A DNA stretch of 64,000 bases from Candidatus Woesearchaeota archaeon (lineage in GTDB: Archaea; Nanobdellota; Nanobdellia; Woesearchaeales; ARS49). The DNA is taken from the NCBI GenBank assembly GCA_018302815.1, contig JAGVZE010000007.1:186001-250000 (forward strand). The letters are read 5' to 3'. Shown piece by piece: positions 55,343 to 59,211 of this stretch (position 1 is the stretch's first letter; the number at the start of each line of letters is the position of its first letter). The notes beneath the pieces are model-generated. The model was not told where the DNA came from, did no database searches, and saw only the letters and a program-made list of their open reading frames with translations. The position numbers were made by a program, and so were the translations under genes.

Positions 55343-55774
55343 ATGGAGTATCTCACAATCGATGAACTCAATCTTTGCTGGGAAAACCAGCTGAAAAAGG
55401 CGCATAGGATGTGTATGCCAAGAACGCTCATCGTTTGCGAGTTTCCACAAGATACTTCAACTCTCCAAGCGATCATATCAGACACGCCAGGATGCTTTGC
55501 TAAACACGGCTACGGCTCGACTATCGCGGTTCTTTTCTCAAACGAATTAGAGTATGCCTGCGTGATTGCAGAGATGGCAGCCCATTATTCCCGTAACGGC
55601 ATAGAAACAGCCTTATCTGCGGTGACATACAACGGAACCCAGAACGTCCCTTCAGATGACTTTGAAACCGCCGCTCGATTATCCCTCGAAAGTGCGTTCA
55701 AGAATATGCAAACCGCACGAAAGACAAAACAGCCGGTTCACTGCGATCTTTCAGAACTACTCCAGACTCAGTGA
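55343..55774 (+). CDS. Hypothetical protein, possibly degenerate GGDEF-like
   Basis: A 143-residue soluble protein. The middle (PRTLIVCEF...KHGYGSTIAVLFSNELEYACVIAEMAAHYSRNGIETALSAVTYN) follows the strand-helix-strand order of a GGDEF domain but has lost the GGDEF signature. It sits 45 nt downstream of the active cyclase and overlaps the convergent Hel308-like gene by 7 nt. It could be a partner or receptor; this is inference. TATA (GTTTAAATA) 27 nt upstream. Confidence 0.55.
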   Translation: MEYLTIDELNLCWENQLKKAHRMCMPRTLIVCEFPQDTSTLQAIISDTPGCFAKHGYGSTIAVLFSNELEYACVIAEMAAHYSRNGIETALSAVTYNGTQNVPSDDFETAARLSLESAFKNMQTARKTKQPVHCDLSELLQTQ

Positions 55775-57264
55775 GACTTCGGCTCAAATTCCCCGAAGAC
55801 GTCATCCTCGAGCTTCTCGCCAACTTGTTTTTTGAGAGATTTAGCGACAGAATCACCAACAATTCTTGCAAGCTTTTCCTGCGATGCGTTTTTTACATCG
55901 CCAACATCCTTTATCCCTTCCTTGAACAACTTTCTAGCACGCACGCGCCCAACCCCTTCAAATCGTATCAGCGCGAGCAGCTCCTCCTTTACTCCATACT
56001 TGAGCCGTAGCCTTGTCTTGACTATCTCTTTTAGCAACGGCTGCAAAGAAAGAAGCCTTGCAAGCTCATGGCAGGAATACAAAAGCCAATCAGCATTATC
56101 GATCTTCACGCGCATCTCGCCCGGCCTGCAATCATATTTTTCAAGCATCCACTCCTCATCCTTCTCGTCAATCCATTCCTCAAGCATCAGAGCAGTCTTG
56201 AACGCGTTTAGATACTCTTCATATTCAGGCTCGAACATGCTCGGCTCGGGTTTAAGCAAGTAGGATTCCAAAAGGTGATATTTTTCCTGCACATCATCAA
56301 ACTCTTTTTGCTTAACCCTCAAAAGAGGACGCATCTCGAGCGAATCGCAGACAAGATGAAGGAATGAAATCGACTTTAGTTTTATCGACTCTGAACGCAT
56401 CAAAGCATCGATGAAAATGTGCGCGGTGAGCGGGTCGAGATAAAGCTCGGCCACTCGTTTTCCAATGATAGTCGCGCGATACCCTTCCTGAATTTCCTGA
56501 ATGAATCCCCACTCCATCAACAGTTTAAGCATCCTGTCAATAATTTTTGCCATACGCTCCAAATCATTATACTGGAACGCCCAGAAAGTCCTGCTGAAAA
56601 AATCCAAAATGGTCTCTTTCGAATGAATTATCCTGCTGTTGATAAGCGAAAGAAGATAAGTTCGTAGAACAGGCTCTACCGCGAGCTTGCTGTAAATCTC
56701 CTCAGGAACGCCCCTAAGATATGTGTCTATGACATATTGTTTGTCAGTCTCTGTTTGAACAATAACGATAGCTTCGCCCACAGTGTCGTATTTTGGCCTT
56801 CCCGCGCGCCCTGCCATTTGAAGGAATTCCAGAACAGGAATCGGCGCCATACCATGCGGGCCAAAACGCTTCAAATCCCTTATTATCGCCCGATACGCAG
56901 GCAAGTCAAGACCTGCCGCGAGCGTCGGCGTGCACGCGATTATCTTGATAACACCCTCGCGAAAAGCGTTTTCTACCAATTCTTTTTGCTTCGCGTGCAA
57001 ACCCGAATGATGGAACGCGATACCCTTTTTCGCGCAAAGCGCAAGACGTTCGCATTGTTTTGTTGGTCTTGGAAGGATGGTTTTGATGTCTTCTGATAGC
57101 TGCGATAGGGCGTCTGATTTAAGCGGTGATTTCTTCGAGATATCCTCTGCTACTTTTTCAGCCGAACGCTTCGCATTGACAAATACTAACGCCTGTTTCT
57201 TGAGCTCAATAGTATCAAGCGCTAGGTTGACCACCGGATCCGGACTTTTTTGCAGCAGGTTCAT
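55768..57264 (-). CDS. hel308: Hel308-like helicase lacking the first motor domain
   Basis: About 498 residues that match Hel308 from the second RecA domain on: motif IV (ALVFVNAKRSAE), motif V (IIACTPTLAAGLDLPA), motif VI (QMAGRAGRP), then winged-helix, ratchet and helix-hairpin-helix (EGVGRVRARKLFKEG) parts. The whole N-terminal RecA1 domain with Walker A, DEAH and SAT motifs (about 200 residues) is missing. Upstream there is tRNA-Ile and mobile sequence. The frame opens at TTG 57327; ATG 57264 is the likely start. Split or truncated gene. Confidence 0.85.
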   Translation of the reverse strand: MNLLQKSPDPVVNLALDTIELKKQALVFVNAKRSAEKVAEDISKKSPLKSDALSQLSEDIKTILPRPTKQCERLALCAKKGIAFHHSGLHAKQKELVENAFREGVIKIIACTPTLAAGLDLPAYRAIIRDLKRFGPHGMAPIPVLEFLQMAGRAGRPKYDTVGEAIVIVQTETDKQYVIDTYLRGVPEEIYSKLAVEPVLRTYLLSLINSRIIHSKETILDFFSRTFWAFQYNDLERMAKIIDRMLKLLMEWGFIQEIQEGYRATIIGKRVAELYLDPLTAHIFIDALMRSESIKLKSISFLHLVCDSLEMRPLLRVKQKEFDDVQEKYHLLESYLLKPEPSMFEPEYEEYLNAFKTALMLEEWIDEKDEEWMLEKYDCRPGEMRVKIDNADWLLYSCHELARLLSLQPLLKEIVKTRLRLKYGVKEELLALIRFEGVGRVRARKLFKEGIKDVGDVKNASQEKLARIVGDSVAKSLKKQVGEKLEDDVFGEFEPKSH

Positions 57265-57375
57265 TTGTTGTTGGTTAACTTCAGTATAGCTTTTACCATA
57301 ACCTTTAAAAAGCAATCCACTCCACAACGAGTATCACGGCCCCGTAGCTTAGCCTGGTGGAGCATTCGACTGATA

Positions 57376-57394
57376 ACCCACAGATGGGCTAGAC
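57376..57394 (+). other. tRNA-Ile intron 1 (position 37/38)
   Basis: A 19-nt intron ACCCACAGATGGGCTAGAC. It folds as a hairpin (CCCA/TGGG) next to the 3-nt bulges TAA and ACA, with a weak central helix (CTGA/CTAG) as in a relaxed bulge-helix-bulge. Cutting after the second base in each bulge joins GATA to ATCGAA and restores the anticodon loop. Confidence 0.8.
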
Positions 57395-57400
57395 ATCGAA

Positions 57401-57419
57401 AGCGTCAAAACGCCGATTA
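57401..57419 (+). other. tRNA-Ile intron 2 (after position 43/44)
   Basis: A second 19-nt intron AGCGTCAAAACGCCGATTA. It has a GCGT/ACGC hairpin, 3-nt bulges AAA and TAA, and a perfect 4-bp central helix ATCG/CGAT. Cutting after the second base of each bulge joins TCGAA to AGGTC, giving a normal variable loop. It is in a non-canonical position. Confidence 0.8.
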
Positions 57420-57449
57420 AGGTCCCGTGTTCGAATCACGGCGGGGCCA

Positions 57450-57624
57450 TTTTTTTTAATACTCTGTGTGTACTATGCTGTGGCGGCGTGATTCGAAAAT
57501 CCAACCACTTCGTGGCTGTCCCTCAAGAAGTTCGCTTTTGCTCACTTCTCGAGGTCATCAGACCTTCGGTCCTCGACTTTAGAACGCTCGTTTTACTCAC
57601 GTATCTAAAGTCACAGCGGGGCCA
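57450..57624 (+). repeat. Hairpin-rich stretch and 3'-end remnant of tRNA-Ile
   Basis: An inverted T-arm CGTGATTCGAA (57487-57497, mirror of 57430-57440) opens the block. Then come stems CCAC/GTGG, CCTCAAGAAG/CTTCTCGAGG (one mismatch), GACC/GGTC and ACTTTAGA/TCTAAAGT. It ends with TCACAGCGGGGCCA (57611-57624), a copy of the tRNA-Ile 3' end. It matches the remnant pattern beside the other tRNA genes and marks the end of the homing endonuclease gene. Confidence 0.7.
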
Positions 57625-58014
57625 TTTATATTTCAAATCATCAAAAGTGCATTTAAACCCTAATTCTGTTATTACTTCATCAAGTTTGACTCTCAATATT
57701 TCACTTTCACTATTTGTCAGTCTTACCATGAACAAGTCTTTCCAACCATATTTTTTTCTTTCATGGACGTACATTTTCGGAGTGAGCTTCAGTTGTTTGA
57801 GTAAACCCATCAGTTGGGCCGCAAGGTTTTTAGAAATTGTCGACAAGATGAATTTCTTCTTCAAATATCCGTCACTTAACGCCAAACCAAGTATGAATCC
57901 TTCGTTAAACTTTGATGATTGCACATTTCTTAAACACACTGATTCCGATTTTAATCTTGAAAAAACGAGATACTTTTCGGGGAATTTGTAAATAAATTTA
58001 GAGTGAATTTTTAA
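57523..58014 (-). pseudogene. C-terminal half of a LAGLIDADG homing endonuclease split by an IS
   Basis: This fragment reads LKIHSKFIYKFPEKYLVF at its interrupted end and carries the second LAGLIDADG motif, EGFILGLALSDGYL. No ATG precedes the frame. It joins in frame to the N-terminal fragment (58801-59211) when the intervening 786 bp is removed. Its far end runs through the tRNA-Ile 3'-end remnant, so the endonuclease gene converges on that tRNA as in the tRNA-Gln(CTG) case. Confidence 0.75.
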
Positions 58015-58800
58015 TTAGTTTGCCAAGAATTCGTCAGGGTCTGGAGCGTAGCGGAAGACCTGACGATGAATTGGCATAAAGCGTAAGTATTGGTTGCTAT
58101 TTCTTGTTACTGGCGCTGTCAAAGAGACTGGTAGGAAGCACACCAAACGCAACAGTGTCGCCCTCTGACCACTTTTCGTAAAGCGGTGAGGGTTCGAGCC
58201 AACCCGGCGAGCAGCGATGATGTGCTTCTTTTGAACCTTTTCTTTATAGCGTGAGCTATAAAAAACTTTCTGGAGATGATTTTTATGACGAGAAATGATA
58301 CGAGAAATAACTGGTTAGACTTTATGTTTGTGACGAAATGCAGGTACAACTGTTTTGGAAAGCAGTCGCACATTGACACGTGCACTGCGGCATTTCGCGA
58401 ACTCGAAGCATTCGGCTTTGAGTTCGGAGTGTTTGGTTTTGGCGGGACGCATGTGCATTTTCAGGCGAATGTGCCAAAGAAATACGCAGTACAGGTCGCG
58501 GAAATCATGTTGAAGTCGCGCTCAGCACAAAGGATGTTCGAAAAACATCCAGGTTTTCGCAAGCGTTACCCACGAGGAAGTTTCTGGAGCGGATACGAAT
58601 ACCACGAATCGATTGGTCGCAAAGACTTTGCAGAATCAACAGAGTACATTCTTGACCAAGAACACCACCACAATGTCAAAGTAATTGACGACCGACAACA
58701 AAAACTAAACGCCTTCACCGCCGAGCGAGATACGGCAAGCCCCGCAAGGGCTTGACGAGAAGCGAAGGCGGAAAGGGGTCATAGGGGGTCGCACCCCCTA
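58015..58800 (+). mobile_element. IS200/IS605-type insertion sequence
   Basis: A segment of about 786 bp with a single transposase gene. Structured ends: an imperfect 56-nt hairpin at 58021-58076 (TGCCAA...TTGGCA outer, CGTCAGG...CCTGACG inner), and a perfect 8-bp stem TAGGGGGT/ACCCCCTA at 58782-58800. A further TTTATAGC/GCTATAAA hairpin lies before the gene. The endpoints are inferred from where the split homing endonuclease frame rejoins (GAATTTTTAA to TTTCATAC). No direct repeat flanks it, as expected of this family. Confidence 0.7.
58285..58755 (+). CDS. tnpA: IS200/IS605 TnpA transposase (Y1-type)
   Basis: A 156-residue HUH transposase. The HUH motif is His56-Val57-His58 (GTHVHFQANVP) and the catalytic tyrosine is Tyr121 (ESTEYILDQEHHH). 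The helix KSRSAQRMFEKHPGFRKRY and SFWSGYEYHES are typical. It would act as a dimer on single-stranded hairpin ends. ATG 58285 has GGAG upstream. No tnpB gene accompanies it. Confidence 0.93.
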   Translation: MTRNDTRNNWLDFMFVTKCRYNCFGKQSHIDTCTAAFRELEAFGFEFGVFGFGGTHVHFQANVPKKYAVQVAEIMLKSRSAQRMFEKHPGFRKRYPRGSFWSGYEYHESIGRKDFAESTEYILDQEHHHNVKVIDDRQQKLNAFTAERDTASPARA

Positions 58801-59211
58801 TTTCATACTCGCTTGATTACCTTGATTGCTATCATGGTAGAGTTTGACCTCTTTCTTGAATAGGTTATTGATTATTTCTTTACAAAATACAATTAGAGTC
58901 TCATTCCTGCGGTCGAGATGAATTTTCGTGATGAAACCATTATTATGGTATCTCGAACCGTCTCCTGCCCAAAGACCGACATACGTTCCTATGAGCAGCT
59001 CGTTTCCATATGTTTGAGTTATTTTCGTTTTTTTATTCAGAATGCCTGTTTTGGATAGCTTATACCAAAGTGTAGATATTGGAATTCCCGTAATTTCGCT
59101 CACTTTTCGAAGAGAAGGGGTTTTTTCATAAAGTGCAGTAAGCATAATCATTCGGACAAAAGTCTTATTTTTAAACCTCGCCCGGGTATTTGTCCTTTGT
59201 GTCCTGTGCAT
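58801..59211 (-). pseudogene. N-terminal half of the split LAGLIDADG homing endonuclease
   Basis: This 137-codon fragment has a helix-turn-helix (SLRKVSEITGIPISTLWYKL) and the first LAGLIDADG motif (LLIGTYVGLWAGDGSRY). It ends SMK followed by TAG formed by the IS end. Restored to the fragment at 57523 it gives one protein with two motifs and HTH start. The insertion therefore inactivated a homing endonuclease. Confidence 0.72.

Follow-up and report, generated by a model that had tools for sequence, protein, structure and literature searches.

A two-intron tRNA-Ile(GAT) gene beside a decayed homing endonuclease gene suggests that homing endonucleases help spread tRNA introns in Woesearchaeales

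Introduction

Archaeal tRNA genes of Thermoproteales, N. equitans and ARMAN carry short bulge-helix-bulge (BHB) introns that are spliced by proteins, may number several per tRNA, and occupy canonical as well as non-canonical positions (PMC4033280, PMC8450103). The multi-intron tRNAs of Thermoproteales, with a maximum of three introns per tRNA, have been attributed to endonucleases of broad specificity (PMC4033280). Transposition of tRNA introns in Thermoproteales has also been proposed, from similar introns in different tRNAs (Fujishima 2010, on the account given in PMC4033280); the citing review names no homing enzyme, and the word homing is absent from it.

For the origin and movement of archaeal tRNA introns, the reviews consulted offer intron transposition, with no enzyme named, and relaxed endonuclease specificity as explanations. 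Two systems in which an intron is associated with a homing enzyme are close to the locus described here. I-DmoI, the LAGLIDADG endonuclease of a BHB intron in archaeal 23S rRNA, is encoded inside its intron; the collaborative homing of phages uses group I introns. The latter term describes a free-standing homing endonuclease gene (HEG) that lies beside an intron interrupting its target (PMC2988022, PMC10448857).

The present locus, a tRNA-Ile(GAT) gene and a neighbouring HEG relic, lies in a 64,000-nt stretch of woesearchaeal DNA, the whole of which is called the window below. Its introns resemble the described archaeal BHB introns in being short, predicted to be protein-spliced, several per tRNA, and placed at both canonical and non-canonical positions; unlike in Thermoproteales, the genome has one plain EndA, and relatives reach up to four introns in tRNA-Ile. 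The HEG has in common with I-DmoI two LAGLIDADG motifs in one chain and a link with BHB introns, whereas it is free-standing, antisense beside the tRNA gene, and provided with an N-terminal helix-turn-helix region. As in phage collaborative homing, a free-standing HEG adjoins an intron-bearing gene and the introns lie in the presumed target gene, but the introns here are BHB introns of ~12-60 nt in archaeal tRNA genes, and cleavage by the enzyme is a prediction. Like the transposition proposed for Thermoproteales, homing would be a way of multiplying archaeal tRNA introns, with the difference that there is a candidate enzyme acting on DNA, whose clades each go with one isotype. A search of open-access literature, which also covered multi-intron tRNAs of DPANN archaea, brought up no earlier report linking archaeal homing endonucleases with tRNA genes.

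Results

The tRNA-Ile(GAT) gene

The original prediction, made from the DNA letters, placed a tRNA-Ile(GAT) with two 19-nt introns in a DPANN organism. The host is a member of Woesearchaeota, the DNA ligase of the genome being closest to Candidatus Woesearchaeota, and the gene was recovered as predicted (Table 1). A match to the Rfam tRNA model RF00005 spanned exactly the whole 112 bp (47.4 bits); ARAGORN, with introns allowed, returned tRNA-Ile(gat) and put a 19-nt intron at gene position 39; and the top-ranked solution of an exhaustive parse with BHB scoring consisted of the two introns listed in Table 1. An uninterrupted tRNA-Ile from another genome in the family (L040) agreed with the spliced product of the window gene at 73 of 74 bases, so the exon ends are backed by a natural, intronless allele that differs at one base only. 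The spliced product, GGCCCCG TA GCTT AGCCTGGTG GAGC A TTCGA CTGATAA TCGAA AGGTC CCGTG TTCGAAT CACGG CGGGGCC A, has a 7-bp acceptor stem, the D, anticodon and T arms, and the anticodon GAT. That the gene and its two introns are real is, in our judgement, practically certain.

The genome (1.55 Mb in 26 contigs) yielded no further copy of tRNA-Ile(GAT), and the gene is therefore probably essential. The TATA-box-like sequence upstream of it is a putative archaeal promoter, judged by consensus only. Scans of plasmid, viral and GTDB contigs gave no match to the tRNA or to its two-intron motif.

Table 1. Features at the tRNA-Ile(GAT) locus, in window positions
Feature	Positions	Strand	Basis
TATA-box-like TTTAAAAAG, 26-34 nt before the tRNA	57304..57312	+	read from sequence
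tRNA-Ile(GAT) gene, 112 bp, two introns, 74 nt when spliced	57338..57449	+	Rfam, ARAGORN, parse, intronless allele
Intron 1, 19 nt, canonical 37/38, relaxed BHB	57376..57394	+	ARAGORN, parse, folding, shuffles
Intron 2, 19 nt, non-canonical 43/44, strict BHB	57401..57419	+	parse, shuffles, covariation
Eight-T run, terminator-like, immediately 3' of the tRNA	57450..57457	+	read from sequence
Degenerate duplicate of the tRNA-Ile 3' end, lying antisense within the HEG reading frame	57610..57627	+	sequence comparison
HEG relic, C-terminal half, second motif GLALSDGY (ORF 57523-57939)	57625..58017	-	Pfam LAGLIDADG_3; family profile E 6.8e-54
Insertion splitting the HEG, approximate ends	58018..58797	.	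bounds deduced from the flanking HEG halves
IS200-like Y1 transposase ORF within the insertion	58276-58755	+	Pfam Y1_Tnp 5.6e-11
HEG relic, N-terminal half, helix-turn-helix region and first motif GLWAGDGS	58798..59211	-	family profile E 2.0e-51; alignment

The two introns

One of the introns had been expected to be non-canonical, which is the case for intron 2, intron 1 being at the canonical site. Both are flanked by 3-nt bulges, as had been claimed, and the boundaries proposed for them follow the known cleavage rule, by which the cut comes behind the second base of a bulge; the motif of intron 1, however, is relaxed. Its central helix (CTGA 57370-57373 with CTAG 57389-57392) forms 3/4 pairs, one of them G-T, and holds one A-C mismatch, while its inner helix (CCCA 57377-57380 with TGGG 57385-57388) forms 4/4. 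It thus falls short of the strict 3-4-3 BHB and has the form seen in the 37/38 introns of relatives; 0.04% of shuffles did as well as the real sequence.

Intron 2 shows the complete archaeal BHB, with two 3-nt bulges, a 4-bp central helix and an inner helix within the intron. The perfect central helix that had been read beforehand, formed with exon bases beside intron 1, was found at 4/4 pairs (ATCG 57395-57398 with CGAT 57414-57417), as was the inner helix (GCGT 57402-57405 with ACGC 57410-57413), and both helices were formed by 0 of 200,000 shuffles. When 353 genomes of the order were searched for its pattern, the same intron was located in seven other genomes belonging to four further families (G043; G208, G216 and G226; G076 and G239; G039), and five other hits were set aside because they do not look like tRNA genes. 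Over the eight genomes, 100% of cells were paired and three pairs of the inner helix had changed on both sides, whereas the slid controls collapsed; the central helix is invariant because it copies exon bases 38-41. Covariance for a different fold had been named as grounds for abandoning the two-intron reading; the covariation instead backs the 43/44 insert as an intron. The 43/44 intron is not a trait of the window genome's family, being absent in the other members searched. Group I introns were also rejected as candidates, given the length of 19 nt and, across the window, the lack of any match to a group I model of Rfam.

Splicing order and EndA

Bases 39-41 are needed both by the anticodon stem, which is the outer helix of the intron 1 motif, and by the central helix of intron 2. 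In the full precursor, the pairing probability was ~0.57 for the anticodon stem and ~0.33 for the intron 2 central helix; the latter rose to ~1.0 with intron 1 removed, and the former to ~0.8 with intron 2 removed. By these probabilities the intron 2 motif forms whether intron 1 is present or absent. The suggestion that the order of splicing may matter held in so far as the two motifs exclude each other at bases 39-41. An obligatory order, by contrast, was rejected, since neither motif needs the other to be spliced first; as a whole the suggestion is thus weakly supported, and in the folding model either order appears possible. Order-dependent removal is in any case not a new idea, because tRNAscan-SE 2.0 already copes with archaeal introns whose closeness requires one to be removed before the other (PMC8450103).

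The type of splicing endonuclease, proposed as a check on the introns, was read from a single EndA locus at C21:15942-16424, the only one found in the genome for PF01974 and PF02778. It encodes 175 aa with both domains and the catalytic Tyr-His-Lys; its RVYDRG, HAKW and STKKRL align to the active subunit of N. equitans, and its alignment with M. jannaschii EndA, 159 residues against 157, shows no large insert, both of these enzymes being among its closest solved relatives. With one two-domain gene, no second subunit gene and no large specific-loop insert, the enzyme is by sequence a plain alpha4-type EndA. Enzymes of this type are reported to cut only canonical BHB motifs (PMC4033280); intron 2 has a strict motif, though in a non-canonical position.

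Introns in other tRNA genes and in relatives

Introns were present in at least 15 of the 44 tRNA genes found in the genome (G000). Non-canonical introns occur in Val(TAC), in the D loop, in Phe(GAA), in the anticodon stem, in Ile(GAT), and in two further genes. Of these, tRNA-Lys(TTT) has two introns (T loop and 37/38), and so does a tRNA-Asn(GTT) located ~950 bp past the window end (G000:C26:250948-251074), at 30/31 (33 nt) and 37/38 (21 nt). Multi-intron tRNAs had been taken to be known mainly from Thermoproteales-type archaea, but both N. equitans and ARMAN have published examples (PMC4033280), and the genome itself has two more (Asn and Lys).

Nor did the supposed rarity of non-canonical introns in this group survive comparison, relatives carrying three or four introns in tRNA-Ile. 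Three (30/31, 37/38 and 43/44) were found in G208, G226, G076 and G239. In G043 (L117 1985-2153) the same three are joined by a T-loop intron, and the gene splices to a perfect 74-mer; in G039 (L082) they are accompanied by a D-loop insert with a less clear BHB. A four-intron tRNA-Ile, as in G043 and less clearly in G039, exceeds the maximum reported for Thermoproteales.

The HEG relic

A LAGLIDADG HEG runs antisense from the 3' side of the tRNA-Ile gene and is split by an IS200-like insertion (Table 1). Alone, its N-terminal half matched no Pfam family at E<=0.001, with LAGLIDADG_3 reached only at 0.026. The frame in the window is interrupted by the insertion and by in-frame stops, and intact frames are present in relatives, for example at the tRNA-Ile-clade loci of G208 (L112), G142 (L113) and G051 (L111). 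Among all relatives the best match lay in G043, beside the four-intron tRNA-Ile; as it lies 3' of the complete tRNA gene, a HEG encoded inside an intron was rejected. Positions 57611-57627 match 57436-57452 at 16/17 bases, and since the HEG frame of relatives runs ~16 nt into the tRNA 3' end, this second copy probably marks the former HEG-tRNA junction.

Between the tRNA and the relic (57482-57606) lie four consecutive hairpins and part of the T arm in inverted form, which may be REP-like or a repair scar. Similarly, in G019 (L063) the 3' end of tRNA-Ile is repeated in tandem beside the tRNA, along with a hairpin. On its other side the tRNA adjoins a Hel308-type helicase gene (55768-57327, minus strand) that begins within the C-terminal helicase domain and is without the N-terminal helicase half; a similar Hel308 C-terminal half lies beyond the tRNA-Ile/HEG pair of G043 (L108 1-897, minus strand), and the protein is possibly naturally split.

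A family of HEGs beside tRNA genes

The search for the HEG family covered the 353 genomes of the order and, after intein-like hits in very long frames had been dropped, left 49 free-standing members. Within ~150 bp of a tRNA gene were 46 of the 49, where ~0.5 would be expected (binomial p ~1e-88 against ~1% expected); these counts and the intron counts below come from scripts and reading by eye, the test inputs were entered from them, and many of the genomes are incomplete bins. Orthologous HEGs stand antisense at the tRNA-Ile 3' end, in the same orientation, in about 10 other families. A tree of 47 HEGs grouped them by adjacent tRNA (Ile/Asn, Ala, Gly, Pro and Ser), with 6 isotype changes over a minimum of 5; shuffled trees averaged 18.4 changes, and 0/200 were as low.

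The members have two LAGLIDADG motifs, each with an acidic residue, and belong to Pfam LAGLIDADG_3; both motif aspartates, the D in AGDG and the D in the second-motif DG, were invariant in 14 sequences. The family profile matched I-DmoI at 4e-8, the closest solved structure by profile. The family extends to other orders of the class, including G373, whose tRNA-Ile has 30/31 and 37/38 introns. We are confident that it is a real tRNA-associated family. Decayed HEGs were found in the window and in G043, G186, G351 and G092, as expected if HEGs die after invasion while introns outlive them.

Two further family HEGs were observed in the window genome. The first (L237, G000:C18:3815-4627) shares 5 bp with an intronless tRNA-Ala(GGC), and the second (L249, G000:C26:83300-84900) lies ~100 bp before an intronless tRNA-Gly(TCC).

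Discussion

The locus is best explained as a functional tRNA-Ile(GAU) with two protein-spliced BHB introns, combined with collaborative homing, an explanation that we hold to be somewhat more probable than its negation. The single EndA would cut each pair of bulges, after which the exons would be joined by a tRNA ligase, and both introns would have to leave before the anticodon arm became usable. The 43/44 intron belongs to a recurring set of anticodon-stem introns (30/31, 43/44 and 45/46) in Woesearchaeales tRNA-Ile that goes with an antisense, free-standing HEG at the tRNA 3' end. The endonuclease is envisaged to recognise the tRNA-Ile gene in its intronless form, in the region of the anticodon arm, where introns at 30/31, 37/38, 43/44 and 45/46 would all interrupt one ~20-bp site centred on the anticodon loop, making the carrier immune; double-strand-break repair would then copy the introns and the adjacent HEG together into intronless alleles. 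At this locus the HEG is dead, and the introns would be left as its footprint. Splicing, cleavage by the HEG product, its target site and homing are all inferred from sequence, and whether introns and HEG spread together by homing we consider evenly balanced.

The arrangement is that of collaborative homing, a free-standing HEG adjoining an intron-bearing gene that is its presumed target. Its main rival is that the HEGs are free-standing parasites that merely land at the conserved tRNA gene or its flank and cut close to where they are inserted, the insertion protecting the carrier, and that the introns are unrelated, in a lineage rich in them. We regard this as possible, though doubtful. It gains from the HEGs that abut intronless tRNAs (L116, L120, L137, L138, L143, L144, L237 and L249; within the order 6 of the 46, including the tRNA-Ile of L116), because of which introns are not required and the HEG insertion may itself protect. 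In the tRNA-Ile clade, most HEG frames end within the tRNA or at its edge, and insertion thereby alters the flank of the gene, and the window genome is intron-rich elsewhere, as its tRNA counts attest.

Against mere landing, introns were present in 40/46 HEG-adjacent tRNAs of the order (hand tally), compared with 12/41 of the tRNAs first found in the window genome. Introns in the anticodon stem of tRNA-Ile (30/31, 43/44 or 45/46) were concentrated in HEG-bearing families, at 8/11 vs 2/37 in those without (Fisher p 1.7e-5, from a hand tally in which related families were treated as independent and ~15 genomes had no located tRNA-Ile). The total number of tRNA-Ile introns averaged 1.7 with a HEG and 0.7 without (Mann-Whitney p 0.002); T-loop introns of tRNA-Ile showed no link with HEG presence. 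Counting against homing, no HEG was found at the locus in G076, G239 and G039, which have stem introns. A second case in its favour is the HEG clade at tRNA-Gly(TCC): the adjoining gene has a T-arm intron at 53/54 for each of the 10 members seen, and none of the tRNA-Gly(TCC) genes next to this clade lacked it. The pattern of this intron was matched in 19 genomes, 7 of which have a HEG at the gene.

These associations suggest that homing endonucleases help spread tRNA introns in these archaea. The wider proposal, that isotype-dedicated HEG clades (Ile/Asn, Ala, Gly, Pro and Ser) drive the gain and spread of BHB introns by collaborative homing in Woesearchaeales and other orders of the class, and that multi-intron tRNAs represent layered immunity to cutting events that followed one another, is put forward tentatively, as somewhat less than an even prospect. 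A HEG family that adjoins tRNA genes isotype by isotype is a concrete enzyme to test; it would supply endonucleases specific for tRNA genes and could help explain how a lineage whose EndA is plain and encoded by one gene comes to have intron-rich tRNAs.

A purely coincidental neighbourhood of ordinary BHB introns and a HEG, with nothing linking them, is very improbable: tRNA genes are common integration sites, and the window also contains an IS200-like element and repeats, but HEGs recur in the same antisense orientation at the tRNA-Ile 3' end in other families, and the near-universal adjacency to tRNA genes strongly disfavours it. Least credible, and in effect refuted, is a single large intron or another fold in which the 43/44 insert is kept as the long variable arm of a type-II-like tRNA, since the best parse restricted to a single intron, while leaving a variable arm of 13-15 nt, loses the perfect anticodon stem, the spliced forms of such parses score 6-7 points lower, and both the intronless allele and the covariation of the insert stand against it.

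Two other tRNA-Ile sequences stand out. In G012, L047 1498-1543 runs from the 5' end of a tRNA-Ile(GAT) up to position 44-45 and no further, unrelated coding-like sequence coming next; it may be a split tRNA, a broken copy or a gene with a very long intron. The window genome also has a tRNA-Ile with the anticodon TAT and a 42-nt canonical intron (G000:C22:16702-16817), the UAU anticodon being rare in archaea.
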